Origin: Elusimicrobiota bacterium
GTDB taxonomy: Bacteria; Elusimicrobiota; Elusimicrobia; UBA1565; UBA9628
DNA: 64,000 nucleotides
Assembly: GCA_016234805.1 (NCBI GenBank)
Contig: JACRNU010000030.1
Location: 91,406-155,405, forward strand
Direction of reading: 5' to 3'
The notes beneath the pieces were generated by a model. The model saw only the letters and a program-made list of their open reading frames with translations. It searched no databases and was not told where the DNA came from. Position numbers and translations under genes: made by a program. Below, piece by piece: positions 9,710-50,876 of the stretch (its first letter is position 1; each line of letters begins with the position of its first letter).

Positions 9710-9739
9710 TTGAAGGCCCTGAGCGCAAAGAGCTATAGT
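9710..9739 (+). promoter_or_regulatory. Putative sigma70 promoter of the PqqD/radical-SAM operon
   Basis: TTGAAG (9710-9715) and TATAGT (9734-9739) are separated by 18 bp, 25 bp before the PqqD start codon. The 84-bp gap between divergent genes must hold promoters for both directions. Confidence 0.5.
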
Positions 9740-9763: not shown

Positions 9764-10051
9764 ATGCCCAAGACCGAGACGCGCAAGCCGCAAGCGTTCA
9801 AGCATTCCAGCCGGGTGGCTTGGCGCAAGGTGGCTGACGAAGCCGTCATCCTCGATGTCGAGACCGCGGCCTACTACTCCCTGAGCGGGACCGGCCTGCG
9901 CATCTGGGAGCTCCTCGGCGAGGGAAAGCTCGTGGAGGACATCGTCTCGCGGCTGGGCGCCGAGTTCGACGCCTCTGAAGACGTCATCCGGCGCGACTGC
10001 CGGGAGCTCGTCGAGCGCCTGCGCCGGGAGAAGATGATCGAGCCGGCGTGA
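9764..10051 (+). CDS. PqqD-family peptide chaperone (RiPP recognition element)
   Basis: A 95-residue PqqD-like protein: VAWRKVADEAVILDVETAAYYSLSG forms the beta-hairpin and GLRIWELLGEGKLVEDIVSRL the following helices of the winged-helix RRE. Such proteins bind the leader of a ribosomally made peptide and present it to a modifying enzyme. GGGAGG at 9751-9756, 7 nt upstream, fixes the ATG at 9764. The stop overlaps the next gene, a radical SAM enzyme, by 4 nt (GTGA), so the two products are made together. A candidate client peptide with a YxxPxLxxxG motif is encoded at 15253-15378. Some PqqD-like proteins in polysaccharide loci have no known peptide client, so the pairing is inference. Confidence 0.82.
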   Translation: MPKTETRKPQAFKHSSRVAWRKVADEAVILDVETAAYYSLSGTGLRIWELLGEGKLVEDIVSRLGAEFDASEDVIRRDCRELVERLRREKMIEPA

Positions 10052-11370
10052 GCAGCGGCTGCCGGGCCGCGGTCAGTGGCCGCTTCGTGTTCGTGGACCC
10101 CCCGAGTCCTCCCGGCTTCATCAGCTTCAAGCACTCCCACGCCGGGTTCGGCGAGTTCTGCAAATCCAGCCGTCTGCGCCTGCCCACGCTCGACCTTTTC
10201 CACGGCGCGACCCTGCTGATCGAGAACAACGTCCGGGCCGAGGTCGTGGATGCTCCGCTCCTCGGGCTCGACGACCGCTCCTGCTGCGCCGAGGTCCTTG
10301 CCCGGCGCCCTTCTCACGTGGCGATCAGGACAGGAGGGTTCTCCCTTCCCCGCGACCTCGCGTGGGCGGCGCTCCTGAGGCGGTCGTTCAAGGGACGCAT
10401 CCTGTTCTTCGGCCCTGCCGCGGACGCGGAAAGCCGGGCCATCCTTGACTCGGGCGCGGCTGACGCCGTGGTGGTGGGAGACGGGCCGGCCGGCTTCCTT
10501 GACCTGGCCAGGAGCGGAAGGCTCTGGAAGGCCGAGGGGGAGGCGGGGAGCAGAGAGCTTCCCGCGGACATGGATTTCCTCCCTGTGCCGGCTTGGAACC
10601 TCACGGACTACCGGCGCTACTCCTTCGTGACGGCGCAGACCTCCTGGGGCTGTCCCATGGTCTGCGGGTACTGCCCGCAGCCGCTCAGCCAGGGTTCGAA
10701 GGTCCGCGCCAGGTCCGTGGGCTCCGTCGCGGCCGAGTTCTCGGCGCTCAGGTCGCGTTACGGCCTGCGCTTCGTCCAGCTGAGGGACCCGGACTTCTGC
10801 GTTGACCGCGCCAGGGCCGAGGCGCTCTGCGAGGCCCTGGTCCGGGCCGGCGCGCCCCTGGCCTGGGGCTGCGAGACCAGGCTCGAGCGGCTCGACAAGG
10901 GCCTGATGAGGCTGATGGCTGAGGCCGGCTGCCTGCGCGTCGCCTTCGGGGTCGAGTCCATGAGCCCGGCGGTCCTCAAGGCCATTGGCAGGAGCCACCC
11001 CGGCCCTGCCTTCATCCGGCGCCAAGTCCAGGCGCTGAAGGCGGCCGGCATCCTGACCTATGGGCTTTACATGGTCGGACTTCCGGGCGAGACCCGGGAG
11101 AGCGCGCTCGCGCTCATCGACTTCGCGTTGAGCCTGGACACCGAGGCCGCCTCCTTCTCCATGGCCATGCCCTTCCCGGGAACGGCGCTCGAACGGCGCG
11201 CGGCTGCCGAGGGCTGGATCGAGGCTCCCGGCCCCTGGAGGCTGACGAGCTGCGTGCCCTCCATGCGCAACGAGAACATGGACTCCCGGGAGATCGAAGA
11301 GCTCTTCCTTCTTGCCAAGCGGCGATGGCATGAGCGCCCCAGGAGAGCGGAGGTCGCTGCCGGCCGATGA
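10048..11370 (+). CDS. B12-binding-type radical SAM enzyme
   Basis: A 440-residue protein. An N-terminal Rossmann-like region (ILFFGPAADAESRAILDSG) resembles cobalamin-binding domains and is followed by the radical SAM core with CxxxCxxC in SWGCPMVCGYCPQ (about residues 205-215). Later motifs include VQLRDPDFC, LRVAFGVESMSP and YGLYMVGLPGETRES, typical of the class B/B12-radical SAM group. These enzymes often methylate or otherwise modify unactivated carbons. GTG 10048 overlaps the PqqD stop, so it is the best candidate partner of that chaperone. Substrate unknown. Confidence 0.85.
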   Translation: MSSGCRAAVSGRFVFVDPPSPPGFISFKHSHAGFGEFCKSSRLRLPTLDLFHGATLLIENNVRAEVVDAPLLGLDDRSCCAEVLARRPSHVAIRTGGFSLPRDLAWAALLRRSFKGRILFFGPAADAESRAILDSGAADAVVVGDGPAGFLDLARSGRLWKAEGEAGSRELPADMDFLPVPAWNLTDYRRYSFVTAQTSWGCPMVCGYCPQPLSQGSKVRARSVGSVAAEFSALRSRYGLRFVQLRDPDFCVDRARAEALCEALVRAGAPLAWGCETRLERLDKGLMRLMAEAGCLRVAFGVESMSPAVLKAIGRSHPGPAFIRRQVQALKAAGILTYGLYMVGLPGETRESALALIDFALSLDTEAASFSMAMPFPGTALERRAAAEGWIEAPGPWRLTSCVPSMRNENMDSREIEELFLLAKRRWHERPRRAEVAAGR

Positions 11371-12419
11371 GGATCGCCCTGGCTTGGATCGACCCGGGAG
11401 ACCCCACGGATGCCGCTGTGGCGTCCGGTCTGGCCGCAGCCCTGGAGGCCCTCGGCCACGAGCTTGTCTTGGTGGGGCCAAGGCGCCACGGCGGGGTCCC
11501 CAGCCGGGCCGGAAGGTTCCGCTTCGCGAGCGCCGGGACCGTATCCGAGCTTCGAGGGCTCCAGCAGCGCTTCGGATTCGACCTTTGGCATTGCCACGTA
11601 TTCGGGCGGTCCCACCGGCTCCTGGTGCGGGCGCTGGAGCTCGAGCGCTGGCCCATGATCGCGAGCCTGCATCTCGTGCTGCCGGACTACCTGCGCTTCG
11701 CCGGAGGCGTGAGCGGACTGGGAGCGCTCCTGCGGCGGGCGCGGCACGCGACCGCGGTGTCGGCTTCGAGCCTGGACGAGGCGGAGCGGCTCTGGCCCTT
11801 CCTTCGGGGCCGGTCGTCGGTCGTGACATGCGGGGTGGCGGAGGCCCTGCCGGATTTCAAGGCCGCCCGAGTCCGAATCCCGCGATCACCTTACATCTTC
11901 TGCGCCGCCAGGCAGGCGCCCTACAAGGGCCTCGACATCCTGCTCATGGCCTTCTCCAAGTTGAGGGAGGCCAGGCCTGACCTCAAACTGGTCATCGCGG
12001 GCAGGGACCAGCTGGACGGAGCCTTGCCCCGCTTCGCAGAGAGGCTGGGCTTGGACGGGAGCGTGCTCTTCTCCGGCGCCCTTGCCCCAGCCGAGGTGCG
12101 GCGTCTCATCCGGGGCTGCCTCCTCTTCGTCCTGCCCTCCCGCAGGGAGGCCTTGGGCATGGCTCTCCTCGAGGCCATGGCTGAGGGCAAGGCGTGCGTC
12201 GCTTCCCGGGTCGGCGGCATCCCGGAGGCCGCCGGACACGGCAAGCACGCCCTGTTGGTGCCCTCCGGCGACGTCCCGGCCCTGGCCAGCGCCATGGAAA
12301 GGCTCGCTTCGGACGCGGCCTTGAGGGAGCGCCTTGGAAGGGCCGCGAGGCAGAGGAGCCTGCGATTCAGCTGGGGGAAGGCCGCGGCCGCCTTCAGCGT
12401 CCTCTATGACCGAGCCTGA
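11367..12419 (+). CDS. GT4-family glycosyltransferase
   Basis: A full-length GT-B enzyme of 350 residues: N-lobe with DLWHCHVFGRSHRLLVRAL and TAVSASSLDEAERL, C-lobe with FCAARQAPYKGLDILLMAF, LFVLPSRREALGMALLEAMAEG and VASRVGGIPEAAGHG. Its ATG overlaps the radical SAM stop by 4 nt and its own stop lies inside the next gene. The C-lobe is close to that of the GT4 at 4606-5649. Specificity cannot be read from sequence. Confidence 0.88.
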   Translation: MRIALAWIDPGDPTDAAVASGLAAALEALGHELVLVGPRRHGGVPSRAGRFRFASAGTVSELRGLQQRFGFDLWHCHVFGRSHRLLVRALELERWPMIASLHLVLPDYLRFAGGVSGLGALLRRARHATAVSASSLDEAERLWPFLRGRSSVVTCGVAEALPDFKAARVRIPRSPYIFCAARQAPYKGLDILLMAFSKLREARPDLKLVIAGRDQLDGALPRFAERLGLDGSVLFSGALAPAEVRRLIRGCLLFVLPSRREALGMALLEAMAEGKACVASRVGGIPEAAGHGKHALLVPSGDVPALASAMERLASDAALRERLGRAARQRSLRFSWGKAAAAFSVLYDRA

Positions 12420-13530
12420 GCGGGTGAGGCTCGAGGACTGGGCCAGGGTCCCGGACCCGGGCTGGGACAGGAAGGGCACGGGCCGCCTCATGGACGCGGC
12501 CTGGTCCGTGAACGCCAACTCGGCCTGGACCAAGGCGTACACCGGGTACTGGTGCCCGCGGCACGCGCGGGGCATCAAGGTCGTCTACTACGGCGCGCCC
12601 GTGGTCGCGCGGGAGGCGCCCCGGCCGGCAGGGCCGTCCTTGCCCTGGCCGTACATCCTCTGCGCCGCCAGGCTCGGGGAATACAAGGGCGTCGACGTGC
12701 TCGCCATGGCTTTCGCCGAGGTCGCCTCCCGCGTGGACCGCGTCCGGCTGGTCCTGGCCGGAGCCGACCATTCGGAAGGGAAGCTCTTTGCGTTCACCGA
12801 GAGGCTCGGGCTCGGCGACAGGGTGGTCTGGCTGGGGCAGCAGTCCCACCCAAGGGTCCTCGGACTCATGCGAGGGAGCCTTTTCTGCGTTCTGCCGAGC
12901 AGGCGCGAGAGCCTGGGAGGGGCCGTCATCGAGGCCATGGCCATGGGCAAAGCGGTCGTGGCCTCTCGGACAGGAGGGATCCCGGAGCTCGTGACGCACG
13001 GCCGTTCAGGGCTTCTCGTGGAGCCCAAGGACCCGGCAGCCCTGGCCCGGGCCATGCTCAGGCTCCTGAAGGACCCGGCAAAGACCGCGAGGATGGGCTC
13101 CGCGGCCCGGCGCAGGAGCCGCCGATTCTCCTGGGACCGCGCCTTGGACGGCTACGCCCGTGAGTGGGCTTCGCATCCCTCCTGGCGGCCTGGAGGCGCG
13201 GTGGGGTTCGCTGTCTGGGATTCGGGAGCGGACCAGACCTGCGGGGCCATCGCCAAGAGCGTGATGGAGGGCCTGCGCCGCCGGAGACAGCCTTTCGTCC
13301 TGTGCTGTTGGCGCTCGGAGGCAGGCGAGCCTTTCAGGCAGGAGGTCCCCGGAGGGGTCGTCTACAGGCTCGGTCCGTATCCTCGGGTGATCTCGGCCCA
13401 ACTCGGCCGCATCGCCCGGACCGAGGATGTCGCGGTCTGGCATCTGCTGGTCATCCGCTACCGGCGCTTGCAGGGGCTCTTGGAGTTCCTCAGGGCCGCA
13501 AGGGTCCGGCCGGTGGTGACCCTGGCCTAG
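12406..13530 (+). CDS. Rearranged GT4-like protein (C-lobe followed by an N-lobe start)
   Basis: A 374-residue product in an odd order. It opens with the tail of an N-lobe (SVNANSAWTKAY, KVVYYGAP), continues with a complete C-lobe (ILCAARLGEYKGVDVLAMAF, FCVLPSRRESLGGAVIEAMAMG, VVASRTGGIPELV) and, after residue ~260, adds ~110 residues that look like the beginning of another GT4 N-lobe (VGFAVWDSGADQTCGAIAKSVMEGL), stopping at VVTLA. A recombination or deletion between tandem GT4 genes explains this; a working permuted enzyme is less likely. ATG 12406 overlaps the preceding gene by 14 bp. Confidence 0.7.
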   Translation: MTEPERVRLEDWARVPDPGWDRKGTGRLMDAAWSVNANSAWTKAYTGYWCPRHARGIKVVYYGAPVVAREAPRPAGPSLPWPYILCAARLGEYKGVDVLAMAFAEVASRVDRVRLVLAGADHSEGKLFAFTERLGLGDRVVWLGQQSHPRVLGLMRGSLFCVLPSRRESLGGAVIEAMAMGKAVVASRTGGIPELVTHGRSGLLVEPKDPAALARAMLRLLKDPAKTARMGSAARRRSRRFSWDRALDGYAREWASHPSWRPGGAVGFAVWDSGADQTCGAIAKSVMEGLRRRRQPFVLCCWRSEAGEPFRQEVPGGVVYRLGPYPRVISAQLGRIARTEDVAVWHLLVIRYRRLQGLLEFLRAARVRPVVTLA

Positions 13531-13538
13531 GAACTGCC

Positions 13539-14582
13539 ATGTTCTCGATCATCATCCCCACGCTCAACCGGTCACGGTCCCTTATCCGAGCTCTGCGTTC
13601 CCTGAGAGGACAGGATTTTCCCGCCCACGGGTTCGAGGCGCTGATCGTGGACAACGGCTCGACGGATCCGACCCGGAGCGTCGCGGAGGGGTTCATCGCG
13701 CGTCATCCGGGGCATCGGTTCCGGTACATCCATGAGCCGGAGCAGGGGCTCTTGTTCGTTCGGAATCGAGGAGCGTCCGAGGCGCGCGGGGACATCCTGG
13801 TCTTCATCGATGACGACATCGAGCCCGCCTTGGGGTGGCTGAAGGCCATCCAGCGCTCCTTCGTTGACCCAAGCGTTCAGCTCGTGGGCGGCCGCATCCT
13901 GCCCAGGTACGAGGCGCGGCCCCCTGCCTGGCTGGAGTGGTTCTGGACCGGGCATCCCGAAGGCCGGTTCTGCGCCCCCTTGGGCCTGCTCGATTTCGGG
14001 AGCAAGGCCCGGGCGATCGATCCTCAATTCATCTGGGGCGACAATTTCTCGATCCGGAGGAAGACCCTGTTCGATCTTGGAGGATTCCACCCGGAATACC
14101 TCCCTTGGGAGGCGCGGCGATTCGAGGGGGATGGAGAGGTCGGCCTCACCAGGAAGGCCAAGGCGGCTGGGTGCAAGGCGGTCTACCACCCCAAAGCTTT
14201 GGTCCGCCATCGGGTCCCGAAGGAGAGGATGACCCCCGAGTACTTCGAGAAGAGGTTCTTCTTCAGCGGCGTAGGCGGCTCCTTCACCCGGCTCAGGGAA
14301 TCCGGCGGCAGACTCGAAGATGATGGAGCGAAGAGCAGGCGGAAGGACCGTTTGAAGGAGCGCTTCGAGAACATCGGCGCGTTCGACCCGTCCGACCGGG
14401 ATCCGGAGAAACAGGCCCTGGTGGAGCGCTTCAACCGCGCTTATCGGGAGGGCTTCGAGTTCCATCAGGCCGCGGTCCGAAGAAGTCCCGCGCTCTTGAG
14501 GTGGGTCCTGAGGAAGGACTATTTGGACTGCAAGCTGCCCCGCTTGAGTGCCGGCGGCTTCCTGCCGCGGCTGAGCCCGTGA
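13539..14582 (+). CDS. GT2-family glycosyltransferase
   Basis: An N-terminal GT-A domain of ~230 residues: FSIIIPTLNRSRSLIRALRS, ALIVDNGSTDPT, EQGLLFVRNRG and the metal-binding FIDDDIEP. GDNFSIRRKTLFDLGGF and FEGDGEVGLTRKAKAAG complete the acceptor side. The C-terminal ~100 residues are basic and helical. It begins 8 nt after the preceding stop, and its own stop is overlapped by the methyltransferase start (GTGA). Probably adds one sugar of a surface glycan or glycoconjugate; donor unknown. Confidence 0.87.
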   Translation: MFSIIIPTLNRSRSLIRALRSLRGQDFPAHGFEALIVDNGSTDPTRSVAEGFIARHPGHRFRYIHEPEQGLLFVRNRGASEARGDILVFIDDDIEPALGWLKAIQRSFVDPSVQLVGGRILPRYEARPPAWLEWFWTGHPEGRFCAPLGLLDFGSKARAIDPQFIWGDNFSIRRKTLFDLGGFHPEYLPWEARRFEGDGEVGLTRKAKAAGCKAVYHPKALVRHRVPKERMTPEYFEKRFFFSGVGGSFTRLRESGGRLEDDGAKSRRKDRLKERFENIGAFDPSDRDPEKQALVERFNRAYREGFEFHQAAVRRSPALLRWVLRKDYLDCKLPRLSAGGFLPRLSP

Positions 14583-15226: not shown

Positions 15227-15252
15227 TATGATGAGGCTGGAGTATATCCGCG

Positions 15253-15378
15253 ATGACCAGGAATGACCACAAGAAGCGCCCGGCCAAGGGCGACAAGCCT
15301 GCGCGCGGGGGCAAGAAGAAGTACAACAAGCCCGAGCTTGAGAAGCACGGGGTCCTCTCCATCGTCGAGGGGGACTAG
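15253..15378 (+). CDS. 41-aa RiPP-precursor-like peptide ending at a lasso-type leader motif
   Basis: A small, highly basic peptide. Its first half is Lys/Arg/Gly-rich and its second half carries YNKPELEKHG, which fits the YxxPxLxxxG leader motif bound by PqqD-like recognition elements in lasso peptide and related RiPP systems. Only eight residues follow (VLSIVEGD), leaving almost no room for a core peptide. GGAG at 15239-15242 lies 10 nt upstream of the ATG. It sits between a methyltransferase and a StrF-like gene, in the same direction as PqqD and three radical SAM genes. Known: the motif is the signature of lasso-type leaders. Inferred: it is the client of the PqqD protein and perhaps of the HPr-kinase-like protein, its Ser or C-terminal Asp being candidate modification sites. 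Confidence 0.68.
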   Translation: MTRNDHKKRPAKGDKPARGGKKKYNKPELEKHGVLSIVEGD

Positions 15379-15442: not shown

Positions 15443-16282
15443 ATGCTGAGCGTCATCGTCTCTTCCCAAGACCCTGACCTGTCATCAGCGCACCGCGCCC
15501 ATGTGGCCCGGACGGTCGGGACCGGCCACGAATACCGGAGGATCCCCAACCGCGCCGGCCGCATGGGCCTGGCGGCCGCGTACAACCTGGGCGCGGCCCG
15601 ATCGAAGGGAGAGGTCCTGGTGTTCATGCACGATGACGCCTCTTTCCTGACCCGGGGTTGGGGAGCTCTCCTGGAGCGCAAGTTCCGGGCCGACCCCTCC
15701 CTCGGCCTCGTGGGCGTGGCCGGGACCCGCCGCCTGGAACGCGACGACCTGCGCTGGGAAGCGGCAGGCTCTCCCCACCTCAGAGGCCGCGTGGTGGTCG
15801 AGCACCCCGACGGGTCCAAGGCCCTGAGCGTCTTCTCCTGGGACCGGGCCGATGACGATGTCGTGGCCTTGGACGGGCTCTTCCTCGCCGTGCGCCGGGA
15901 GCTCTTCGACTCCGGCCGGGGTCTCGGCCGCGTGAGATTCGATTCGGAGACCTTCGACGGGTTCCATTTCTACGACCTGGACCTGGCCATGCAGGTCCGC
16001 AGGACGCACCGGTGCGTGGCGTCCTGGGACATCCTCCTCAGCCACCGCTCGACCGGCCTGCGGGACGCGGCTTGGGTTTCCGCGGCAGGCCGCTTCCGGA
16101 AGAAATACGACCATGAACTGCCGGCCGTCTGCGCGGGCTCACAGGCCGGCCGGGGCGGCGGCGCCGCGGTGAGGCACTTCGGACTGGAGGGGGAGGGGGA
16201 ACGGGTGTTAAGCCGCCTTGGCCTTCTTCCGGCCGGGGTGGTCGGGCGAACCAGGGGGTCCGCGGGAGGGGCGTCCGGATGA
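15443..16282 (+). CDS. StrF-like GT2 glycosyltransferase
   Basis: A 279-residue protein with a GT-A fold: LSVIVSSQDPDLSS at the N-terminus, GLAAAYNLGAARSKGEVLVFMHDDA with the HDD metal motif, then LGLVGVAGTRRL and VVALDGLFLAVRREL. FHFYDLDLAMQVRR is the acceptor/catalytic region. This matches the glycosyltransferase-like domain first seen in streptomycin biosynthesis protein StrF. The final ~40 residues are Gly-rich and poorly conserved. Its stop overlaps the next radical SAM gene by 4 nt. Confidence 0.75.
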   Translation: MLSVIVSSQDPDLSSAHRAHVARTVGTGHEYRRIPNRAGRMGLAAAYNLGAARSKGEVLVFMHDDASFLTRGWGALLERKFRADPSLGLVGVAGTRRLERDDLRWEAAGSPHLRGRVVVEHPDGSKALSVFSWDRADDDVVALDGLFLAVRRELFDSGRGLGRVRFDSETFDGFHFYDLDLAMQVRRTHRCVASWDILLSHRSTGLRDAAWVSAAGRFRKKYDHELPAVCAGSQAGRGGGAAVRHFGLEGEGERVLSRLGLLPAGVVGRTRGSAGGASG

Positions 16283-17289
16283 TTCTGAAGCGGAGATTCG
16301 GGCTCGGGCATTGGGCCGCGGCCGGCAAGGCGGCCTTCTTGGCCGCGGCATGCGGCAGGCGGACGCCGCTGGCCGTGAGCTACCTCATCACCAACAGGTG
16401 CAACTCCTGCTGCGCCTATTGCGACCGGTGGAGGAAGGCAGGGCCTGAGCTGTCCACGGAACAGGTCTTCGAGCTCCTTTTGGGGCTCAGGCGGCTGGGG
16501 ACCCGGTTCCTCCAGATCACGGGAGGAGAGCCCTTCCTGCGCGAGGACCTCCCCGCGGTCGCGGCGAGGGCCAGGGAGCTCGGCATGCATGTCGGGGTCA
16601 ACACGAACGGCTCCCTCATCGAGGAGCGCGCCGAGGTCCTGAGCTGCCTGGACCATGTCTGCTTGAGCCTTGACGGACCTCCCGAGGTGCACGAGAAGAT
16701 CAGGCCCAGGGGTAGCCACGGGCGGGTGGAGAGGGCCGTCGAGTTCGTCAAGAGCCGGGGAGTCCCGGTCTCCCTGACAGCCACGCTGACCAAGTTCAAT
16801 ACGGACTGCGTGGACTATCTCCTGGACTTCGCCGCGGCAAGGGGAGTGCCCTTGTCGTTCCAGCCCGCGGACGTCCACGCCCTCTCCAGCCTCCGCGACA
16901 ACGAGACGGTTGCGGAAACGGAGCGGGTCCGGGCGGCCTTCGCGCTCCTCGCTGAGCGCAAGGAGCGGCACGACTGCCTCGAGAACGGACTCTTGGAGCT
17001 GGCTTACATGAGGAAGTGGCCGGAGCAGCAGGGGGTCGACTGCGCCGGAGCCAGGCTCTTCTGCCGCATCGAGAGCGACGGCGACGTCATGGTCTGTGGT
17101 CTAAAGGAGCAGGGGAGGAGCCATCCCAACATCCTCAGGGACGGCTTGGCAGCGGCCCTGTCCAGCGTGCCCCTTCCCGATTGCCGCGCGTGCTTCTGCT
17201 CCGCCAGGCTGAGGATGAACATCCTCTACAGCGCGTTCCGCCTCAACCGGCGGGTCCTCCTGGACTTGCTCAAGGGAGGAGGCTGCTGA
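16279..17289 (+). CDS. Radical SAM enzyme with SPASM-like C-terminal cysteines
   Basis: A 336-residue protein. The radical SAM cluster motif is in TNRCNSCCAYCDRW (CxxxCxxC, about residues 40-50), followed by LQITGGEPFLREDL and VNTNGSL. The C-terminal part (CAGARLFCRIESDGDVMVCG and CRACFCSARLRMN) carries the cysteine pattern of an auxiliary iron-sulfur domain of the SPASM/twitch type, common in enzymes that modify peptides. This is the second radical SAM gene of the cluster and sits less than 1 kb after the leader-like peptide, so it is a plausible maturase. A role in sugar modification is the alternative. Confidence 0.85.
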   Translation: MILKRRFGLGHWAAAGKAAFLAAACGRRTPLAVSYLITNRCNSCCAYCDRWRKAGPELSTEQVFELLLGLRRLGTRFLQITGGEPFLREDLPAVAARARELGMHVGVNTNGSLIEERAEVLSCLDHVCLSLDGPPEVHEKIRPRGSHGRVERAVEFVKSRGVPVSLTATLTKFNTDCVDYLLDFAAARGVPLSFQPADVHALSSLRDNETVAETERVRAAFALLAERKERHDCLENGLLELAYMRKWPEQQGVDCAGARLFCRIESDGDVMVCGLKEQGRSHPNILRDGLAAALSSVPLPDCRACFCSARLRMNILYSAFRLNRRVLLDLLKGGGC

Positions 17290-17292
17290 CGC

Positions 17293-18840
17293 ATGAGGGT
17301 GGCCCTGGTCTTCAATCCCTTCTCGTACAAGGTCCACGAGGAGAACCTTCGGGTCGTCCAGAAATACTTCGGCCTGTTCCCGCCCTTGTCCCTGGCCTGG
17401 GTGGCCGCCATGGTGCGGAAGGCGGGCCATGACGTCATCATCGTGGACTGCCGGACCCTGGACCTGTCCAAGCAGGACGCGGCGTCCATCCTGAAGAGGT
17501 GGCGGCCGGACGTCATCGGCGCCATGATGACGACCTACATGTTCCCGGAGACCCTCGGATGGCTGGCGTACCTGCGGTCCGAGCTCGAGTCCTGCGGCAT
17601 GAGGCCCAAAGTCCTCGTGGGCGGCTACAACCTGCGGGTCTATCCCCGGGAATCGGTAGGTCACCCTGAGATAGACTTCGGATGCCTCGAGCATGCCTAC
17701 CACACGGTTCCCGCCCTGCTCCGGGAGCTCGAGCGTCCCTATCCCGACCTCGAGTCCGTTCCCGGGCTGGTGTGGAAGAGGGGCGGCCGAGTCGTGATCA
17801 ACCCTCATCCCCAGGCCGTGGATTTCGACCTGTTCCCCAACCCGGCCAGGGACCTCCTGCCCAACGAGCTCTACGCGGAGTTCCCGACCCAGCGCAAGAA
17901 CTTCACGGTCATGGTGACCTCCCTGGGCTGTCCCCGCCGCTGCGCGTTCTGCGAGGCGGGAGGCACGCCCTACGCGCCGCGCAGCCCGAAGACCGTTCTC
18001 GACGAGATGCAGGAGTGCCGGGAGCGGCACGGCATCCGGGAGATCGACATCTTCGACTACGACTTCACGGCCGGCCGCCGGCGCGTCCTGGACATCTGCG
18101 CCGGGATCGCGGCGCGGAAGCTGGACGTGACCTGGGCCTGCCGGTCCCGGGTGGACAACATGGACGCCGGCCTCCTCGATGCCATGGCGCAAGCCGGGTG
18201 CAGGAGGATCTACTGGGGCATCGAGCACTCCAGCCAGGAGACCCTCGACAGCCTGGGCAAGGGCATCAGACTTTCGGCCGTCCGCGAGATGCTGACGCGG
18301 AGCAGGCGGGCCGGGATCCAGAACCTCGGGTTCTTCCTGGTGGGCGTGCCGGGCGAAACCGAGGCCTCGGTCGCGGCCACGGCCGCGTTCGCGCGGTCGC
18401 TGGACCTCGACTACGCCCAGTTCTCCAAGCTGTTGGCCAAGCCCGGGACCGGCCTGTGGCGCGACATGAAGCGCCGGGGCTGGAGGGACTACTGGGCCGA
18501 CTGGGTCGCGGGCAGGGAGATCGACCGGGAACTGCCCAGGCCGTGGCTGGACGGCCTCGACGGCGAGCGGCTCGACCGGGTCACGCACGACGCATATCTT
18601 AAGTTCGCGCTCCGGCCGGCCTTCCTCCTGCGGCACCTGCTGGCATGCCGGTCCATGGCTGAGGTACTGCGCAAGACCCTGGCCTTCTTCGACATGATGC
18701 TTGGAAAGCTCAGGCCCATGCGCCGGGGCGCCTTCCGCATCCACCACGAGAACCCGGCCGCTACCTTCCTGCGCCGCTGGTCCGTCGCGCGGCAAGGACG
18801 CGTTCCCGCGGGCGCCGCGGCCGGGGATGCTGATGCTTGA
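17293..18840 (+). CDS. B12-binding radical SAM enzyme
   Basis: A 515-residue protein. An N-terminal cobalamin-binding-like domain (FPPLSLAWVAAMVRKAGHDV, later VLVGGYNLR) is followed by the radical SAM motif in TSLGCPRRCAFCEAG (about residue 215), DIFDYDFTAGR, IYWGIEHSSQET and FFLVGVPGETEAS. The C-terminal ~130 residues are helical. Overall it resembles the BchE/MagE-like group, but no substrate can be named. It follows the SPASM radical SAM gene by 3 nt and overlaps the following membrane protein gene by 14 bp. Confidence 0.85.
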   Translation: MRVALVFNPFSYKVHEENLRVVQKYFGLFPPLSLAWVAAMVRKAGHDVIIVDCRTLDLSKQDAASILKRWRPDVIGAMMTTYMFPETLGWLAYLRSELESCGMRPKVLVGGYNLRVYPRESVGHPEIDFGCLEHAYHTVPALLRELERPYPDLESVPGLVWKRGGRVVINPHPQAVDFDLFPNPARDLLPNELYAEFPTQRKNFTVMVTSLGCPRRCAFCEAGGTPYAPRSPKTVLDEMQECRERHGIREIDIFDYDFTAGRRRVLDICAGIAARKLDVTWACRSRVDNMDAGLLDAMAQAGCRRIYWGIEHSSQETLDSLGKGIRLSAVREMLTRSRRAGIQNLGFFLVGVPGETEASVAATAAFARSLDLDYAQFSKLLAKPGTGLWRDMKRRGWRDYWADWVAGREIDRELPRPWLDGLDGERLDRVTHDAYLKFALRPAFLLRHLLACRSMAEVLRKTLAFFDMMLGKLRPMRRGAFRIHHENPAATFLRRWSVARQGRVPAGAAAGDADA

Positions 18841-26910: not shown

Positions 26911-28238
26911 CAGTTCGTGCAGGTCAGCCAGCTCGGCCACTGCCGCTCAGGCAGGTCCTTCCAGGACTCGCGGGTGAGGATCACGCTCGTGGTCTTCATG
27001 TAGTCGCCCGCGTCGTCCCAGTAGTAGAGGTGGAGGGTGTTGGGCGTGACCGTGACCGTGCCTACCACATAGAAGGCCCCGATCATGTCCGCTCCGCCAG
27101 CGCCGCCGATCTGGTTCAAGTTGCCGCCCACGTAGGTGAAGCCCTTGACCATGATGTTGTTGAGGCATTTGTACCTGCCTGCCGCGGACTTGTAGGGTGA
27201 GGTGATGCCCGGGAAGCTCGCTGGAGCGTCAGGGTCGACCGCGGTCGGCGCCCCGCCGCAGGTCATGACCATGTCGCGGTACTGGGCCCATGCGGCCGCG
27301 GTCCTCCCGTACTGCTTCCAAGCCTTGCGGGGCAGCTCCGCGTGCTCGTCTCCGTAGCCCGCGTTGCCGTTGGGAAGGGTCATGTTGCCGGTCACGATGA
27401 GCCTGCCCTGGACGAAGACCTTGCCCTCGATGCACAGGTCCCCCTGGATGTAGTAGGTCTTGTCCGTCTTGCACGAGGTGGCGTCCGAGCAGGTCATGCT
27501 GCAGGCCACGCCGCAGGCAGTGCCTGAGTTCTTGCCCCAGCACTGGTTGCCGACGAAGAGGGTGCCCGAGGAGACCGCGTCGAAGTAGAAGCCGTCCACG
27601 TCGATGCCCGGGTCCGAGGGGATGTCCTGCTCGTAGGAGTGCCAGCCCACGCAGGCCGAGTCGCAGTTGGGCTGGGCGGAGCCGTTGGTGTCGAGGTCGA
27701 TGCTTCCCGCGCTCCAGAACTGGGGGTATTCCCGGGCGTTGACCGTGAGGCTGTTGGGGGAGATGACCGCTCCCCAGTTGACGTCGGTCTGGGAGCCGTC
27801 CAGGACCACCCCGGACTTGCCGTAGACCGCGGTGTCGCCCAGGGGCGAGTTGGTGTAGATGGCCTGGATGGCGCGGGCCTCCTTGCCCGCGGCCTGCTTG
27901 GAGATGGAGATGACCGTGGCCTGGTCCTCGTCCGGGCCGCTGGAGATGCCGATGGCGTAGCAGCCGCCGGTCATGTCCGTGTAGACCTGGTTGAAGTTGT
28001 AGCCCGCGGGGATGGTCCCGGCCATGGCCGCGGCCCAGGTCGTGGTGCTCTCGGAGACCTTGCGGTAGCCGCGGTCGATGCCTCCCTCGGCGAGCTGGAA
28101 GGCGGCCATGTTCTGGGTCTGCTTGACCGACCACTTCGCCTCGTTCTGGGTATAGAGGACCATGACCGGCACGATCACGGCCAGGACCAGCATGAGGAGG
28201 ATGACGCCCACCAGGACCTGCCCACGCCCGCTCTTCAT
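26910..28238 (-). CDS. PilX-like pilus assembly protein with Cys-rich exported domain
   Basis: A 442-residue protein. The N-terminal hydrophobic stretch QVLVGVILLMLVLAVIVPVMV resembles the single transmembrane helix of PilX/minor-pilin proteins, followed by AAFQLAEGGIDRGYRKV, the helix that often follows. The rest is a Gly/Thr/Tyr-rich exported domain with several Cys (CDSACVGW, CWGKNSGTACGVACSMTCSDATSC) able to form disulfides. Bactofilin-like IEGKVFVQGRLIVTGNMTL occurs in the middle. Third of three prepilin-like genes in a row, overlapping the gene before by 1 nt. Confidence 0.7.
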   Translation of the reverse strand: MKSGRGQVLVGVILLMLVLAVIVPVMVLYTQNEAKWSVKQTQNMAAFQLAEGGIDRGYRKVSESTTTWAAAMAGTIPAGYNFNQVYTDMTGGCYAIGISSGPDEDQATVISISKQAAGKEARAIQAIYTNSPLGDTAVYGKSGVVLDGSQTDVNWGAVISPNSLTVNAREYPQFWSAGSIDLDTNGSAQPNCDSACVGWHSYEQDIPSDPGIDVDGFYFDAVSSGTLFVGNQCWGKNSGTACGVACSMTCSDATSCKTDKTYYIQGDLCIEGKVFVQGRLIVTGNMTLPNGNAGYGDEHAELPRKAWKQYGRTAAAWAQYRDMVMTCGGAPTAVDPDAPASFPGITSPYKSAAGRYKCLNNIMVKGFTYVGGNLNQIGGAGGADMIGAFYVVGTVTVTPNTLHLYYWDDAGDYMKTTSVILTRESWKDLPERQWPSWLTCTN

Positions 28239-28747
28239 CAGTTCATGATCCTCACTTTCTGGATGGAGAGCTGCAGGGCTTTCCTGCGCTGCAGGTAGGT
28301 CGGGGCATGCATCGTGACCGCGACCGAGATGATGCTCGGGTCGTAGGTCGCGGGATAGGAGAAGGAGAGATAGGCCAGCCGGTTCGAGAGCGTGGTCGTG
28401 ACCACGGTGGCGCTCGACAGGATCATCTTGAGGTTCTGGCCGCTCTGGTAGAAGGTCACGGTGCCGCCCTTTTCCGGGGTGAAGCTGATGCGCGAGTAGG
28501 GAGGGTCGGTGACGGAGTACTGGTCGATGGTGACCGAGGACGCCTTGGCTTGGCGCAGGTAGCGGTTGACGGTCTCCAGGCAGATGCGCACGTCCCGCTC
28601 GATCTCGTTGCGGGCCGTGGTGAGCCTCCAGAAGTTCGTCATCTGCAGCATGATGGGCGCGGCCACGGACGCGAGGATGCAGACGATGCCCACGGTCATG
28701 AGGGCTTCGGTGAGGGTGAAGCCCCGATTGCGGAGGCGTCTTCTCAT
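28238..28747 (-). CDS. Prepilin-like protein with type IV N-methylation motif
   Basis: A 169-residue protein with a classic prepilin N-terminus, RNRGFTLTEALMTVGIVCIL, where prepilin peptidase would cut after Gly and methylate Phe; Glu5 of the mature protein is present. The remaining domain is beta-rich and resembles PilW/GspJ-type minor pilins. The start at 28747 overlaps the giant pilin stop by 4 nt (ATGA). Confidence 0.85.
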   Translation of the reverse strand: MRRRLRNRGFTLTEALMTVGIVCILASVAAPIMLQMTNFWRLTTARNEIERDVRICLETVNRYLRQAKASSVTIDQYSVTDPPYSRISFTPEKGGTVTFYQSGQNLKMILSSATVVTTTLSNRLAYLSFSYPATYDPSIISVAVTMHAPTYLQRRKALQLSIQKVRIMN

Positions 28748-31503
28748 GGCCAAGTCCCCGAGAAGTCGATGTTGGCGGTGGTCGCGCCCGCGGTCACGGA
28801 CACCTGGGCGGGCGTCTTGTCCTTGCGCTGGAAGGAGAGGGAGCCCGAGTAGGGGTCCGCGAGCGGATAGTAGGCCGCCATGTAGTAGGAGCCGGCCGTG
28901 ACCTCCAGGTTGTAGGTGCCGTCCGATTGGCTCGACACCGAGAAGATCGGGTCGGCCAGGCCGGGCGCGGTCACGCCGGAGATGGCGGGCGGAGGATCGC
29001 TGATGGTCCCCTTGCTGGCCAGCAGGAGCACTCCGGTCGTGATGACGCAGTTCGCGTTGGTCGAGCACAGGGCGTCGGACTTGACCGAGCCCGTGATCCT
29101 GCCCATGCCGCCGCTGACCGTGACCGTGCCCACGAACACGTTGCTGCCCGTGGAGGCGAGGGACGCGGTCATGGGAGACGGGGAGCTGGTGTAGGCCTGG
29201 CCGGAGGCCAGGACAGGCGTGACCGTGTAGGTGAAGGCCGAGGTCGAGGCTCTGATGTAGAAATAACCCGAGGGGTCGGAGTAGCTCTCGTAAGCGGCGC
29301 CGGTCCGGACCGCCTTGGCCACCACGTTGGGCAGGGCCCCGGTGCCTGTGGTGACGTACCCCATGATGACTCCGGACTGGGCCAGGTGGAAGGCCGGGAT
29401 GGTCTGAACCTCCCCGATGCTGAGGGTGGTGGATTGGGAGTCCGGGGAGTAGCTCGCGTTGTCCGTGCTGTAGTTGGCCGTGACCGTGACCGTGCCGCTG
29501 GTGGTGTTCAGGAGGTAGAACCCGTTGGAGTTCGTGCGGCCCGTGACCCCTGATGCCCAGACCAGCAAGTCGTTGAGGGGTGTCCAATAGGCGGTGTCGG
29601 CTCCGTAGACATAGCCCTGGACGAAGCCGCCCGTGGAGGCTGATGTGAGCCGGGTATTGTAGTAGCCGGATGCGGTCCAGGAGGACACGGTGCTGGCGTC
29701 CGGGATGTAGTAGGTCGCGCCCTGGGTGATGGCCACGGTGCCGATCTGGAGCATGTAGGCTCCGGAGGAGACGGTGATGGTCCAGGTCCCGGTGGTCACC
29801 CCTTCGATGAAGATGTCGGCGCGTTCGTTTCCGGTGTCAGGGCTCACGGGATACGCCTGGGAGGCCAGGGAGTAGCCGTCCGGCGCCGCGGCAATGGCGC
29901 CGTGGGCAGGCTTGCCCGCCACCGGCCTCTTCCAGTCATAGGCGTTCGGGTAGACGGTGGTCCCGTCCGAGGCGTTGGCGTAGACCGGGAGGCTGTAGTC
30001 GTCGAGCATGGCCACCATGTAGCGGAAGTTCGAGGCATTGTTGTCCGTGTCGTACGCCGGGCCGTAGGCGGCCTTATAGTCGTTCGGCTCGGTCATGCGC
30101 ACGATGGCGTCCCCGTCCTTCAGGCCATCGGCGTATGTCGGTTGGCAACCAACGGTCCTTTCCGTCAATGCCTCAGGGGCCGTCAGGCCGCCTGTCCTCC
30201 AGGCCACCCGATCCACGTAGACGCCGTTGTATTTGATGCCGATCCCGCCGGGCTGGGCGGTCTGACACCAAGCGCATTGAGCGGGCGGAATATCGACGTA
30301 TTCCTTGATGACGTTCCTGTAATCGTAGGTCCAGTTGTCGAACCCGTTCGCGATGAATTGGGCGTTGGTCCCGTACACCGCGTCTGCTGTCCGTGTGGAG
30401 CCATGGATGCTGATGGGCGTGGTGCTCGCGATCAGGAAGTAATGGTTGGGGCGGAGCGTATTGTTGGTGAAGGCCAGCGGGATTGTTTTGGGGACCGACC
30501 AGTCCTGGTTTCCGTAGAGGATCTGGAAGTTCGTGGAGTCCAGGGTCCAGGTGAAGGTCGTGGGGTTGTAGAGCTCGACGTACTCGACATCCCTTTCGTT
30601 GAGGGGGAGGGGAGCGGCAAGGGTTGCTACATCGTGCAGTGTGCGGTAGCCGGCATCGTCGCTGCCCGGGTCGTCGATGTAGGCTCCGGTGCCGGCCACG
30701 ACCTGGCTGATGACGATGCTCGTGGACATCCACACCGAGGTCTTGAACGCGCCTGTGGCGATCGCCACCATGGCATTGCCTGCTGTGAAGTCCGCGGTGC
30801 CGAAGCCCCCGCGGGGAGCCGAGATGTTCGTCCTAATCTGCTGGTAATAGCCGGTGGAGGAGGCGATGACGGAATAGGTGCCCCTGGACACGGTGAAGGT
30901 GTAGGCGCCGGCGGAGTCGCTGACCGCGGTCCAGTTCGGGTTGCCCACGACCTCGACCACGGCCCCGGTGAGGGCGCCTCCCACGGCTTTGTTGACCGTG
31001 CCGCGGATGCCTGAGTCCATGCCCGTGGCCGCGGGGTTGGCCAGCAGGTTCTTGATGGTCAGCATCTTGTTGTTGTGGCCGTCCTCCCACATGAGGTAGA
31101 CCGTGATCTGCTTCAAGCCCGTGTCCACGGAGGCGTAGGAGACGGTGGTGATCTGAGTGCCCGCCATCTCGGCATAGGCCACGTGGGTCGCGCGGGTGAA
31201 CACTGGGTAGCCCCACATGCTGACCGTCTCGGGGACGTAGGTGACGTCGTCGTATTCGACGCCGTGCGTGGAGTTGACGGCCGTGTGCGTGGTGACGAGC
31301 ATCTGGAAGTAGGAGTAGTTCTTCATCACCTCCATCTTCTCCTGGATGAGGTTGTTGGCCAGGGTCCGGGTGCGGGAGGTGTGGATGGCTTTGGTGATGT
31401 AGCTGAAGCTGCTCATGCCCGCGATGGCGATGACGGTCATGATGGTCATGGCCACGACCAGCTCGACCAGGCTGACGCCGCGGGATGACTGTAATCGTTT
31501 CAT
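28744..31503 (-). CDS. Giant prepilin-like protein with lamin-tail-like and carboxypeptidase-regulatory-like domains
   Basis: A 919-residue protein. SSRGVSLVELVVAMTIMTVIA is a type IV prepilin signal (cleavage after Gly, Glu5 present). Around residues 170-235 lies a carboxypeptidase-regulatory-like beta-sandwich (GTVNKAVGGALTGAVVEVVG). Around 265-470 a segment reads like a lamin-tail domain: IVISQVVAGTG, VEYVELYNPTTFTWTLD, LRPNHYFLIAST. More regulatory-like repeats follow (GFVQGYVYGAD, GVIMGYVTTGTGALPNVV, GRITGSVKSDA). Ordinary pilins are 120-200 residues, so this is probably a pilus-tip or surface adhesin. ATG 31503 is chosen since it gives the short leader usual for prepilins. Confidence 0.75.
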   Translation of the reverse strand: MKRLQSSRGVSLVELVVAMTIMTVIAIAGMSSFSYITKAIHTSRTRTLANNLIQEKMEVMKNYSYFQMLVTTHTAVNSTHGVEYDDVTYVPETVSMWGYPVFTRATHVAYAEMAGTQITTVSYASVDTGLKQITVYLMWEDGHNNKMLTIKNLLANPAATGMDSGIRGTVNKAVGGALTGAVVEVVGNPNWTAVSDSAGAYTFTVSRGTYSVIASSTGYYQQIRTNISAPRGGFGTADFTAGNAMVAIATGAFKTSVWMSTSIVISQVVAGTGAYIDDPGSDDAGYRTLHDVATLAAPLPLNERDVEYVELYNPTTFTWTLDSTNFQILYGNQDWSVPKTIPLAFTNNTLRPNHYFLIASTTPISIHGSTRTADAVYGTNAQFIANGFDNWTYDYRNVIKEYVDIPPAQCAWCQTAQPGGIGIKYNGVYVDRVAWRTGGLTAPEALTERTVGCQPTYADGLKDGDAIVRMTEPNDYKAAYGPAYDTDNNASNFRYMVAMLDDYSLPVYANASDGTTVYPNAYDWKRPVAGKPAHGAIAAAPDGYSLASQAYPVSPDTGNERADIFIEGVTTGTWTITVSSGAYMLQIGTVAITQGATYYIPDASTVSSWTASGYYNTRLTSASTGGFVQGYVYGADTAYWTPLNDLLVWASGVTGRTNSNGFYLLNTTSGTVTVTANYSTDNASYSPDSQSTTLSIGEVQTIPAFHLAQSGVIMGYVTTGTGALPNVVAKAVRTGAAYESYSDPSGYFYIRASTSAFTYTVTPVLASGQAYTSSPSPMTASLASTGSNVFVGTVTVSGGMGRITGSVKSDALCSTNANCVITTGVLLLASKGTISDPPPAISGVTAPGLADPIFSVSSQSDGTYNLEVTAGSYYMAAYYPLADPYSGSLSFQRKDKTPAQVSVTAGATTANIDFSGTWP

Positions 31504-31526
31504 TAATAGGGATTCCAGCACTATGA

Positions 31527-46928: not shown

Positions 46929-48149
46929 GTGCGTCGAGAACGGACGGGGGCCCTCCTCTGGGTCCCCGTCTGTCTTTTCCTGACGGGCTGCGCCACCATG
47001 GGCACGGGGCTCTCGCGCGAGCAGTTCGACCTCCTGCCGCGGCAGTCGCCGGACGCCGCTGAGGTCCTCCTCCTGCAGTCGAACGTCAACTGCCAGTTCT
47101 TCGTGGACTCGCAGCCTCTGGCCATCGGCAGGAGGGTCCGCATCGTCGTGACCAAGGCCAGCCACCAGGTGACCTGCAAGCCCGATGGGTACCGGGCCAA
47201 GGAGGAGTACCTCCAGCCTCCCTTCGACCCGAATTATCCCATCGGGTTCACCTTCCTTTTGGAGGACCGGCTCCCGGAGGGCAAGCCTGCGTCCGAGGGC
47301 GCCGCTCCCGCGGCACGGGTGGAGGAGGCGGTCATGCCCTCGGACGCGGATAATCCTCCCAGGACGCGGACCAAGGCCATGAAGGACGCGGCCGCGGTGG
47401 TCATCGGCATCGAGAAATACCGGGACCTTCCCAAGGTCGACTTCGCCGCCCGCGACGCCGAGACCGTGAAGCGCTATCTGGTGGAGTCCATGGGCTACCC
47501 GGAGGAGAACGTGGCCGTGCTCACCAACGAGAGGGCGACGCGCTCGGACCTGGAAGCCTATCTCGGGGCGTGGCTCAAGAACAACGTGACGCCGGGAGGC
47601 AAGGTCTTCGTGTTCTTCGCAGGGCACGGTTCCCCGGACCCGACGAACGGAGACGCCTTCATGGTGCCGTTCGACGGGAACCCCAGCTTCCTGAAATCCT
47701 CCGCCTATCCGCTCAAGAAGCTCTACGCTGACTTGGCCATGCTGCCCACCAAGGACATCCTGGTCGTCATGGATTCGTGCTTCTCCGGCGCGGGGGGGCG
47801 TTCCGTCATCGCCAAGGGCACGCGGCCCCTGGTCACCAAGGTCGATGATTCGGCGCCCGCAGACGGCATCGTGGTCCTCTCCGCGGCGTCTGGAGAGCAG
47901 ATCAGCTCCTTCTATCCGGACAAGCGTCACGGGATGCTGACCTACTTCTTCCTCAAGGGCCTCCAAGGGGAAGCCGACGGGGACCGCAGCGGGAGCGTCA
48001 CCTTGACGGAGCTCTACGACTACCTCAGGCCCAAGGTGACGCAGATGGCCAGGAAGCTCAACAACGTCGAGCAGACCCCGCAGCTCGCGCCTCCGGCGGA
48101 CCGGCTCGGCGACCGCGCCGGGATGACGCTTCTGGACCTGGCGCGCTGA
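46929..48149 (+). CDS. Caspase-like (peptidase C14) lipoprotein
   Basis: A 406-residue protein starting at GTG 46929, with signal and lipobox (LLWVPVCLFLTGC). Residues ~20-110 include a PEGA-like segment (NCQFFVDSQPLAIGRRVRI, CKPDGYRAKEEYLQPPF). The caspase domain starts at AAVVIGIEKYRDLP; probable catalytic residues are His233 (FFAGHGSPD) and Cys284 (MDSCFSGAGGRSVIAKG). It would act outside the cytoplasm, attached to a membrane. The frame is open further upstream, but only this start gives the signal peptide. Confidence 0.88.
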   Translation: MRRERTGALLWVPVCLFLTGCATMGTGLSREQFDLLPRQSPDAAEVLLLQSNVNCQFFVDSQPLAIGRRVRIVVTKASHQVTCKPDGYRAKEEYLQPPFDPNYPIGFTFLLEDRLPEGKPASEGAAPAARVEEAVMPSDADNPPRTRTKAMKDAAAVVIGIEKYRDLPKVDFAARDAETVKRYLVESMGYPEENVAVLTNERATRSDLEAYLGAWLKNNVTPGGKVFVFFAGHGSPDPTNGDAFMVPFDGNPSFLKSSAYPLKKLYADLAMLPTKDILVVMDSCFSGAGGRSVIAKGTRPLVTKVDDSAPADGIVVLSAASGEQISSFYPDKRHGMLTYFFLKGLQGEADGDRSGSVTLTELYDYLRPKVTQMARKLNNVEQTPQLAPPADRLGDRAGMTLLDLAR

Positions 48150-48163
48150 CCCGTAATCTAAGC

Positions 48164-48169
48164 TATAAT
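48164..48169 (+). promoter_or_regulatory. -10 box of a leaderless transcript
   Basis: A consensus TATAAT whose last base is followed by 6 nt and then the GTG at 48176, so transcription is expected to start at or very near the start codon. Confidence 0.5.
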
Positions 48170-48175
48170 CCCGCA

Positions 48176-48748
48176 GTGATATCCGGCGATTCCCTGCAGG
48201 AGCAGGCGCGGGCGTTCTCCGCTTTGGCCGACGCGGCCGCGCGTTTCTTCGCCGAGCCGTCGCAGGCCCAGGCAGGCATCGTGCGCGAGCACCTCGGGAC
48301 CTGCCGGACCAAGGCCGGGGCGGTGCGCAAGGGCGGGGGCAGGGACGGCCGCGAGGACATGATGGTCGTGTCGAGGCACCTTTCAGAGGCCGCTGTCCAA
48401 GCTGCCAAGGCTGTGGAGGAGTGCCTGTTGTTCAAGGTTTCAGCGGGCAAGCCGCTGTCCGCCACGCTCGAGTCCCTGCGCGACGCTGCCAAGGACCTGG
48501 ACCGTTCCGTGAGAAGCCTGGGCAGGGGCGGCAGGGAGCGCTGCGCGGATAGCGTCATCAGCGCGAAAAGGAATGCCCAGCAAGCCTCCAGGCTGGCGGA
48601 TGCCGGCGCCAACGAGGCTTTGCAGATCCCGAACACGGTTGAAAGCATCAAGTTCAAGGAGACGTTCGCCCGGCTCTCCCGGGCCGCTGACGAGGTCCAT
48701 CAGGCAGCGGACCGGCTGGGAGAGATGGCAGCGGTCGCTGATGATTAA
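48176..48748 (+). CDS. All-helical PhoU/DUF47-like protein
   Basis: A 190-residue, Ala-rich, all-alpha protein; regular heptads (DAAKDLDRSVRSL, ARLSRAADEVHQAADRLGEM) suggest a helical bundle. The C-terminal NTVESIKFKETFARLSRAADEV resembles DUF47/PhoU-like accessory proteins of phosphate transport, but no transporter is adjacent. GTG start without Shine-Dalgarno, 6 nt after TATAAT. Overlaps the 5'-nucleotidase by 8 bp. Confidence 0.6.
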   Translation: MISGDSLQEQARAFSALADAAARFFAEPSQAQAGIVREHLGTCRTKAGAVRKGGGRDGREDMMVVSRHLSEAAVQAAKAVEECLLFKVSAGKPLSATLESLRDAAKDLDRSVRSLGRGGRERCADSVISAKRNAQQASRLADAGANEALQIPNTVESIKFKETFARLSRAADEVHQAADRLGEMAAVADD

Positions 48749-50255: not shown

Positions 50256-50258
50256 GCC

Positions 50259-50876
50259 GTGCTCCAGAAAGCCAAGGCAGAGGTCGAATACTGGTTGAGA
50301 GTCGTCAAGAGGGTCGTGGGCTTTCTCATGGTGTGGGGCCTGATCTTCAGCCTCGTGACCATCGCCAAGCTCGGGGTGGCCTTCGATTACGACGACACCC
50401 TGGTCTTCTCCACGCCGGCCTACGAGAAGGCCTTCGCTTCCGCGCCCCAGGCCCTAAAGGGCTCTCCTTCGGGTGCCATGAGCCGGCAGTTCTGGTCCGT
50501 GGTCAACCAGGCATACGATCTGGAGAGGCCCAAGATCGTGCCGCTCTCAGCGGCCTGGCTCTTCCGCGTCCTCGGGTTCAGGGTGGCCATCCTGGCTTCC
50601 CGGCCGGACACGGACGGGGAAGCCCTCAGGAAGGAGTGGCGCAGGCTCGTGCCCAAGCCGCGCTTCATCTTCGCGGGCGATGGGGCCGATAAGCGCCGCC
50701 ACCTCGAGGACGGCAACTTCGTGCTGTATTTCGGGGACTCGGACATGGACATCTCCGAGGCGCGCAAGGCCAGCGTGTTCCCGGTCCGCGTCAAGCGCAG
50801 TCCGCAGTCGTCCTACAAGGAAGACTACCACCCTGGCACGATGCGCGAGTTCGTGCTTCCCCTGTCGCAATACTGA
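50259..50876 (+). CDS. HAD-superfamily phosphatase (class B acid phosphatase-like) with inserted repeat peptide
   Basis: A 205-residue protein with an N-terminal hydrophobic anchor (VVGFLMVWGLIFSLVTIA). HAD motif I is FDYDDTLVFSTPAY, motif II ILASRPDTDG, and FGDSDMDISEA gives the motif IV acidic residues. The layout follows AphA-type class B phosphatases. Between motif I and the following FW helix, a 25-bp repeat inserts ALKGSPSG (residues ~65-72), apparently in a tolerant loop. GTG start 3 nt after the 5'-nucleotidase; the two may act in sequence. Confidence 0.75.
   Translation: MLQKAKAEVEYWLRVVKRVVGFLMVWGLIFSLVTIAKLGVAFDYDDTLVFSTPAYEKAFASAPQALKGSPSGAMSRQFWSVVNQAYDLERPKIVPLSAAWLFRVLGFRVAILASRPDTDGEALRKEWRRLVPKPRFIFAGDGADKRRHLEDGNFVLYFGDSDMDISEARKASVFPVRVKRSPQSSYKEDYHPGTMREFVLPLSQY
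50451..50475 (+). repeat. In-frame palindromic coding repeat, copy D
   Basis: Core identical to copies A-C and in the same reading frame (ALKGSPSG), here in the middle of a HAD phosphatase rather than at a terminus. Confidence 0.9.

Follow-up and report, generated by a model that had tools for sequence, protein, structure and literature searches.

The peptide gene and its surroundings

The stretch of DNA analysed here (the window, 64,000 nucleotides) contains a short open reading frame that lies within an array of genes for a PqqD protein, a radical SAM protein and several glycosyltransferases. The features that matter for the following are these.

9710..9739, + strand: promoter-like match of the sigma-70 type upstream of pqqD (by consensus only)
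9764..10051, + strand: pqqD, a discrete RRE and predicted leader-binding protein (PF05402, E 2.9e-18; TbiB1, E 5.6e-13; Asp equivalent to LppB D70)
10048..11370, + strand: rSAM1, an AprD4-like radical SAM protein (PF04055; AprD4 6fd2); its start overlaps the pqqD stop
11367..12419, + strand: GT4a glycosyltransferase; its orthologue in the relatives directly follows the peptide gene (clade support 98/97)
12406..13530, + strand: GT4b glycosyltransferase, in one clade with GT4s that lie behind GT4a in four other clusters
13539..14582, + strand: GT2 glycosyltransferase, between GT4b and the peptide gene in the window genome
14579..15226, + strand: methyltransferase-fold protein, last gene before the peptide (PF13489, E 4.4e-13)
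15239..15242, + strand: GGAG, a possible ribosome-binding site; 10 nt separate it from the ATG (direct reading)
15253..15378, + strand: PEP, gene of the 41-aa proposed precursor peptide, ATG to TAG, 41 codons (homologues; synonymous-only changes at the conserved end)
15253..15321, + strand: Lys/Arg-rich N-terminal part, residues 1-23 (composition kept in the alignment, sequence not)
15322..15351, + strand: leader motif YNKPELEKHG, residues 24-33 (alignment; class consensus [YW]xxPxLxKHG)
15352..15375, + strand: invariant tail VLSIVEGD, residues 34-41, the proposed core (identical in 7/7 genomes, with synonymous codon changes)
15443..16282, + strand: PF13712 glycosyltransferase-like protein, directly after the peptide (domain match)

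The peptide reading frame begins 26 nt after the methyltransferase gene and ends 64 nt before the PF13712 gene. Since all genes from pqqD (9764) to about position 23770 are on the + strand and mostly overlap or are separated by short gaps, a single transcription unit over this range is likely. In the domain search GT4a is a normal group 1 glycosyltransferase. The PF13712 gene beside the peptide was not found in the clusters of the six relatives described below.

Two more radical SAM proteins, one plain and one B12-binding, are encoded after the peptide at 16279-18840; orthologues of the two are absent from the six other clusters, and they may belong to another pathway. Farther downstream the - strand (26913-31521) encodes large proteins, two of them with a prepilin-like N-terminal methylation motif, and one of these two, of 925 aa, has a CarboxypepD_reg domain. 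Homologues of these large proteins occur near the peptide cluster in loci L033, L035 and L037.

The peptide is conserved at its C-terminal end

The reading frame at 15253-15378 translates to MTRNDHKKRPAKGDKPARGGKKKYNKPELEKHGVLSIVEGD. As the earlier note had observed, it contains the stretch YNKPELEKHG, which fits the pattern YxxPxLxxxG, and eight residues follow up to the C-terminus. One short reading frame with [YW]xxPxLxxxG near its C-terminus is present in the window. The motif alone is not significant and is weak evidence for a peptide gene, because about 0.5 such frames are expected on average in Markov-simulated windows of the same composition. A search of NCBIfam with the peptide found no model for it, the best match being lasso_cyano at E 0.17, far below the cut-off.

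What decides the matter is conservation. Clear homologues (E 2.1e-9 to 2.1e-5) were found in six genomes among 57 relatives searched, and these belong to the same order and to two other families. A profile built from the seven sequences was run against 341 genomes of the phylum Elusimicrobiota and matched exactly seven of them, with E values from 1.9e-19 to 1.9e-17; beyond these the scores fall to about 1e-5, where the peptides have only the leader in common. The C-terminal KHGVLSIVEGD, followed by the stop codon, is identical in all seven genomes and thus in three families. At 7 of the 11 codons for this end the genomes differ, and all of these differences are synonymous, so that selection acts on the protein. 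The earlier note had proposed to look for the frame and for Y, P, L and G of the motif in relatives. P, L and G are indeed invariant, while the motif tyrosine (Tyr24) is Y in four sequences and W in three (G035, G037 and G043); such a Tyr/Trp exchange is tolerated by RRE leaders (PMC12710340, PMC13381572). The N-terminal half varies in sequence and length across the seven-sequence alignment and has its Lys/Arg richness as the common feature.

We also scanned the GTDB r220 contigs, a set that possibly does not include the window's own genome, for HGxxS[IV]VEGD before a stop codon. This returned six Elusimicrobiota relatives and one Microvirga. The Microvirga reading frame (L063 3084-3299, ending HGVVTVVEGD) runs antisense to a beta-lactamase-like gene and was judged a chance match. 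Taken together, the reading frame at 15253-15378 is a real peptide gene under selection.

Gene order and partner proteins in relatives

Five relatives have the genes arranged as pqqD, rSAM1, a DegT/DnrJ aminotransferase gene (DegT, family PF01041), the peptide gene and GT4a, usually followed by more GT4 genes. The same order is spread over two contigs in G043, where the two ends of DegT lie at the edges of the contigs, and pqqD stands beside rSAM1 on the contig that ends inside DegT. In the six intact clusters pqqD is at most 6 kb from the peptide gene and overlaps rSAM1 by stop and start codons (6/6), and in three clusters (L034, L035 and L038) the peptide stop overlaps the start of GT4a. Of the genes that the earlier note suggested looking for next to the same short gene in relatives, the one for PqqD is there; for an HprK-related kinase the matches are only weak and below cut-off, with none in the window genome.

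The window differs from this arrangement in two respects. DegT is missing at the cluster, the window genome being the one of the seven that lacks it and has only paralogues elsewhere, and the peptide gene does not adjoin GT4a but lies farther downstream, behind GT4b, GT2 and the methyltransferase gene. The window GT4a and PqqD still group with the partners of their class, with clade supports of 98/97 and 88/74, respectively.

An orthologue of rSAM1 occurs in exactly the seven peptide genomes among the 341 (567-764 bits, compared to 237 bits for the next match), and the sole other genome of the same genus has neither the peptide nor rSAM1. The seven genomes are not independent draws, as these genes travel together; nonetheless the match between peptide and rSAM1 is exact. 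The peptide is thus tied to PqqD, rSAM1 and GT4a by genomic coupling and by the exact co-occurrence with rSAM1.

The closest solved relative of the window PqqD by sequence is the lasso B1 protein TbiB1 (5v1u, E 5.6e-13). This supports the earlier note where it saw a RiPP-like peptide whose leader carries the lasso motif; the gene of the peptide stands in one array with that of PqqD. A fold search with a PqqD-peptide chain from the relative L076 also placed TbiB1-leader complexes at the top, with the match covering the PqqD part; in the single-chain read-through model of this chain the peptide is undocked, with a pLDDT of about 50. In LppB the aspartate D70 forms a hydrogen bond to the leader tyrosine (PMC13381572), and an aspartate is found at the equivalent position in 17 of the 18 Elusimicrobiota PqqDs aligned, so that the pocket would be compatible with leader binding. 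We considered whether the choice of W or Y in the leader goes along with the PqqD residue equivalent to N33, which is A, A and, in L107, T with WxxP, and S, N, D or T with YxxP. The residues overlap and are too few, and we make no such claim. The window genome encodes five PqqDs in all. Two further PqqD-family proteins are encoded outside the window on contig C84 of this genome, G000 (47469-50826, L085); 3 kb lie between the two, and radical SAM-like genes are found in their vicinity.

The nearest solved relative of rSAM1 is AprD4 (6fd2), by sequence (E 3.7e-38) as well as by predicted fold (E 2.2e-23). However, rSAM1 reaches 161 bits against the AprD4 model NF033070, far below its cut-off of 500.

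Related peptides share the leader and differ in the tail

Other Elusimicrobiota peptides of 34-51 residues have the same basic start and a leader of the form Y-x-[KR]-P-x-[LIV]-x-x-HG, followed by different constant tails. The tail classes are xLxxTALA[HR]SY, xLxxxxAxFxxxY and K[IL]S[ED]VASAFKP. Peptides of the first two classes are usually encoded directly upstream of a GT4 gene (L042, L043/L079, L069, L070, L072-L074, L078 and L189-L191), and their C-terminal tyrosine recalls that of MftA. In the K[IL]S[ED]VASAFKP class (34-40 aa) the peptide starts at the end of pqqD, immediately after it in every locus examined. The one annotated locus of this class (L184 7356-10680) encodes a radical SAM protein, PqqD, the peptide, an acyltransferase-like protein and an AAA-type protein; the latter two genes were seen in L184 only, while the peptide also occurs in L185-L188, L192, L193 and L197. 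Two related peptides have odd tails, LLSMAAFPGGAMAQSWWGWW (L076 4035-4187) and LLPILSETASGTA (L039 9681-9797), and adjoin pqqD/GT4 or radical SAM/GT4 genes.

A probable precursor peptide with a short core

We consider it rather likely that the reading frame encodes a precursor of the RiPP type whose core, at the C-terminus, is very short, in the manner of mycofactocin. The frame is short and conserved, and its leader motif is of the RRE-binding kind. Our strongest argument for the tail as the substrate is that the leader is common to all these peptides, while the constant tails are specific to each class. Since the tail is in addition the most conserved part of the peptide, it is probably the core. 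The view of a leader-only peptide, which the earlier note had put forward, has to be given up for the same reasons. Of the three options it offered, a tiny product fits best; a function in the basic N-terminal half fits worst, because this half varies in sequence and length.

From what is established about RREs, PqqD would bind the [YW]xxPxL stretch of the leader and present the peptide to the co-encoded rSAM1. The GT4 glycosyltransferase and, in six of the seven genomes, the DegT aminotransferase would act in the same pathway. All or part of VLSIVEGD would be the substrate, with rSAM1 and GT4 presumably acting on the tail, and Ser36 is the obvious candidate for glycosylation because it is the only hydroxyl residue there. 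Release of the core might then give a small product. The exact sequence of the tail may be required by the enzymes or by the final product and for this reason be kept invariant, like the C-terminal Val-Tyr of MftA. Several points speak against the precursor reading. There is no known product, and a peptidase or exporter common to the clusters was not found among the conserved neighbours. In the window itself the peptide gene stands apart from GT4a, being separated by two genes even from GT4b, and the cluster has no DegT. Furthermore, rSAM1 may act on a sugar, with an indirect link to the peptide, since AprD4 itself works on a pseudodisaccharide.

Beyond this, we tentatively propose, with less than even confidence, a new class of RiPPs that is restricted to some of the Elusimicrobiota. 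Here PqqD would deliver the peptide, and its VLSIVEGD tail would be turned into a small glycosylated molecule by the AprD4-like radical SAM protein together with an aminotransferase and a GT4, as one of several parallel Elusimicrobiota pathways that share the leader and differ in their short constant cores.

Other explanations

The main rival to the precursor reading would make the peptide a carrier or primer, since each partner enzyme has relatives that act on sugars: AprD4, the PF01041 aminotransferases and GT4. The tail would then be a handle that holds a sugar-like or amino-sugar product during its assembly by rSAM1, DegT and the GT4s, before the product is released or transferred; the peptide itself would not be the product. 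This would agree with the invariant acidic C-terminus and with the position of the peptide directly upstream of GT4 in most loci of several tail classes. However, a ligase able to load a carrier is not common to the clusters, the coupling of PqqD to rSAM1 is of the kind found in systems that modify peptides, and the KISEVASAFKP class has a radical SAM and an acyltransferase-like gene instead of an adjoining GT4. We regard a carrier as rather unlikely. It is less probable still that we deal with a glycopeptide of a polysaccharide locus, where GT4 would O-glycosylate Ser36 and the modified peptide, leader included, would be a surface or envelope component that PqqD only delivers. The surroundings are rich in glycosyltransferases, the tail has an invariant serine, peptide and GT4 genes overlap, and large prepilin-like proteins are encoded close by in several clusters; yet the exact co-occurrence with rSAM1 would be left unexplained, no secretion signal is apparent in the peptide, and the hydroxyl residues differ in several tails of other classes.

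The free peptide could also be a regulator, devoid of any substrate, whose role is to titrate PqqD or a different RRE, as the encoding of PqqD in the same array and the five PqqDs of the genome might suggest. Titration would need the leader only, but it is the tail that is most conserved and whose sequence follows one enzyme set, which makes this explanation very improbable. The YxxPxLxxxG motif and the B1-like PqqD might finally point to the precursor of a lasso peptide, or to what degeneration has left of one. A stretch of eight residues is too short to form a ring plus a threaded tail, the B2 protease (PF13471) is found in none of the seven genomes above cut-off and not at all in the window genome, and no cyclase gene is among the conserved neighbours, while strict purifying selection on the tail argues against a remnant. 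The lasso pathway was rejected for its missing protease and short core, and we give this origin hardly any chance.

If the precursor reading is correct, the locus represents a precursor family with an invariant eight-residue core and the enzyme set PqqD, AprD4-like radical SAM protein, DegT and GT4, in a phylum of mostly uncultured bacteria. In the literature searched we found no description of such a combination, and nothing relevant on PqqD or RiPPs in Elusimicrobiota. Invariant short cores are typical of peptide-derived cofactors, such as mycofactocin with its Val-Tyr, so that an antibiotic role is no more likely than one within the producing cell. The several tail classes behind one leader are also a natural test set for the pairing of RREs and modifying enzymes.

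Comparison with known systems

Judged from its genes, the system is RiPP-like, and its enzyme set matched no RiPP family tested. With the lasso peptides that use a discrete B1 RRE (TbiB1, FusB1) it shares the [YW]xxPxL leader and a B1-like PqqD. It differs from them in that the cluster has no B2 protease and no cyclase among the conserved neighbours, and the eight residues after the leader glycine compare with a core of a 7-9 residue ring plus tail.

The linear polyphosphorylated peptides (LppA/LppB) have a YxxP leader as well, with a histidine and a hydrophobic residue at equal spacing (YxxPxVLxHQxI compared to YxKPxLxKHGxL here), a discrete RRE and a glycosyltransferase-rich locus (PMC13381572). 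However, their tail is long and variable, whereas the tail here is short and constant. The association with an HprK-related kinase was dropped, as the matches to TIGR04352 are only weak and below cut-off, and the window genome has none at E 0.001.

Among solved structures, AprD4, a radical SAM 1,2-diol dehydratase of aminoglycoside synthesis, comes nearest to rSAM1 in sequence as in fold. No PqqD partner is known for AprD4, whereas rSAM1 is encoded with pqqD and scores far below the AprD4 family cut-off.

Mycofactocin differs in its enzymes and its core. MftC is a SPASM-type enzyme, and rSAM1 matches AprD4 best; the MftA core is Val-Tyr, and the proposed core here is VLSIVEGD. The glycosyltransferase of mycofactocin is a GT2 and the one here a GT4, and counterparts of MftD and MftE were not found among the conserved neighbours of the clusters. 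The general plan is nevertheless similar. Mycofactocin is made from a 31-residue precursor with a dipeptide core by an RRE, a radical SAM protein and a glycosyltransferase (PMC7491314), and the genes of MftA, MftB, MftC and MftF, like those described here, bring a short precursor, a discrete RRE, a radical SAM protein and a glycosyltransferase together in one cluster. In both systems constant C-terminal residues form the core, or in our case the proposed core (PMC7491314).
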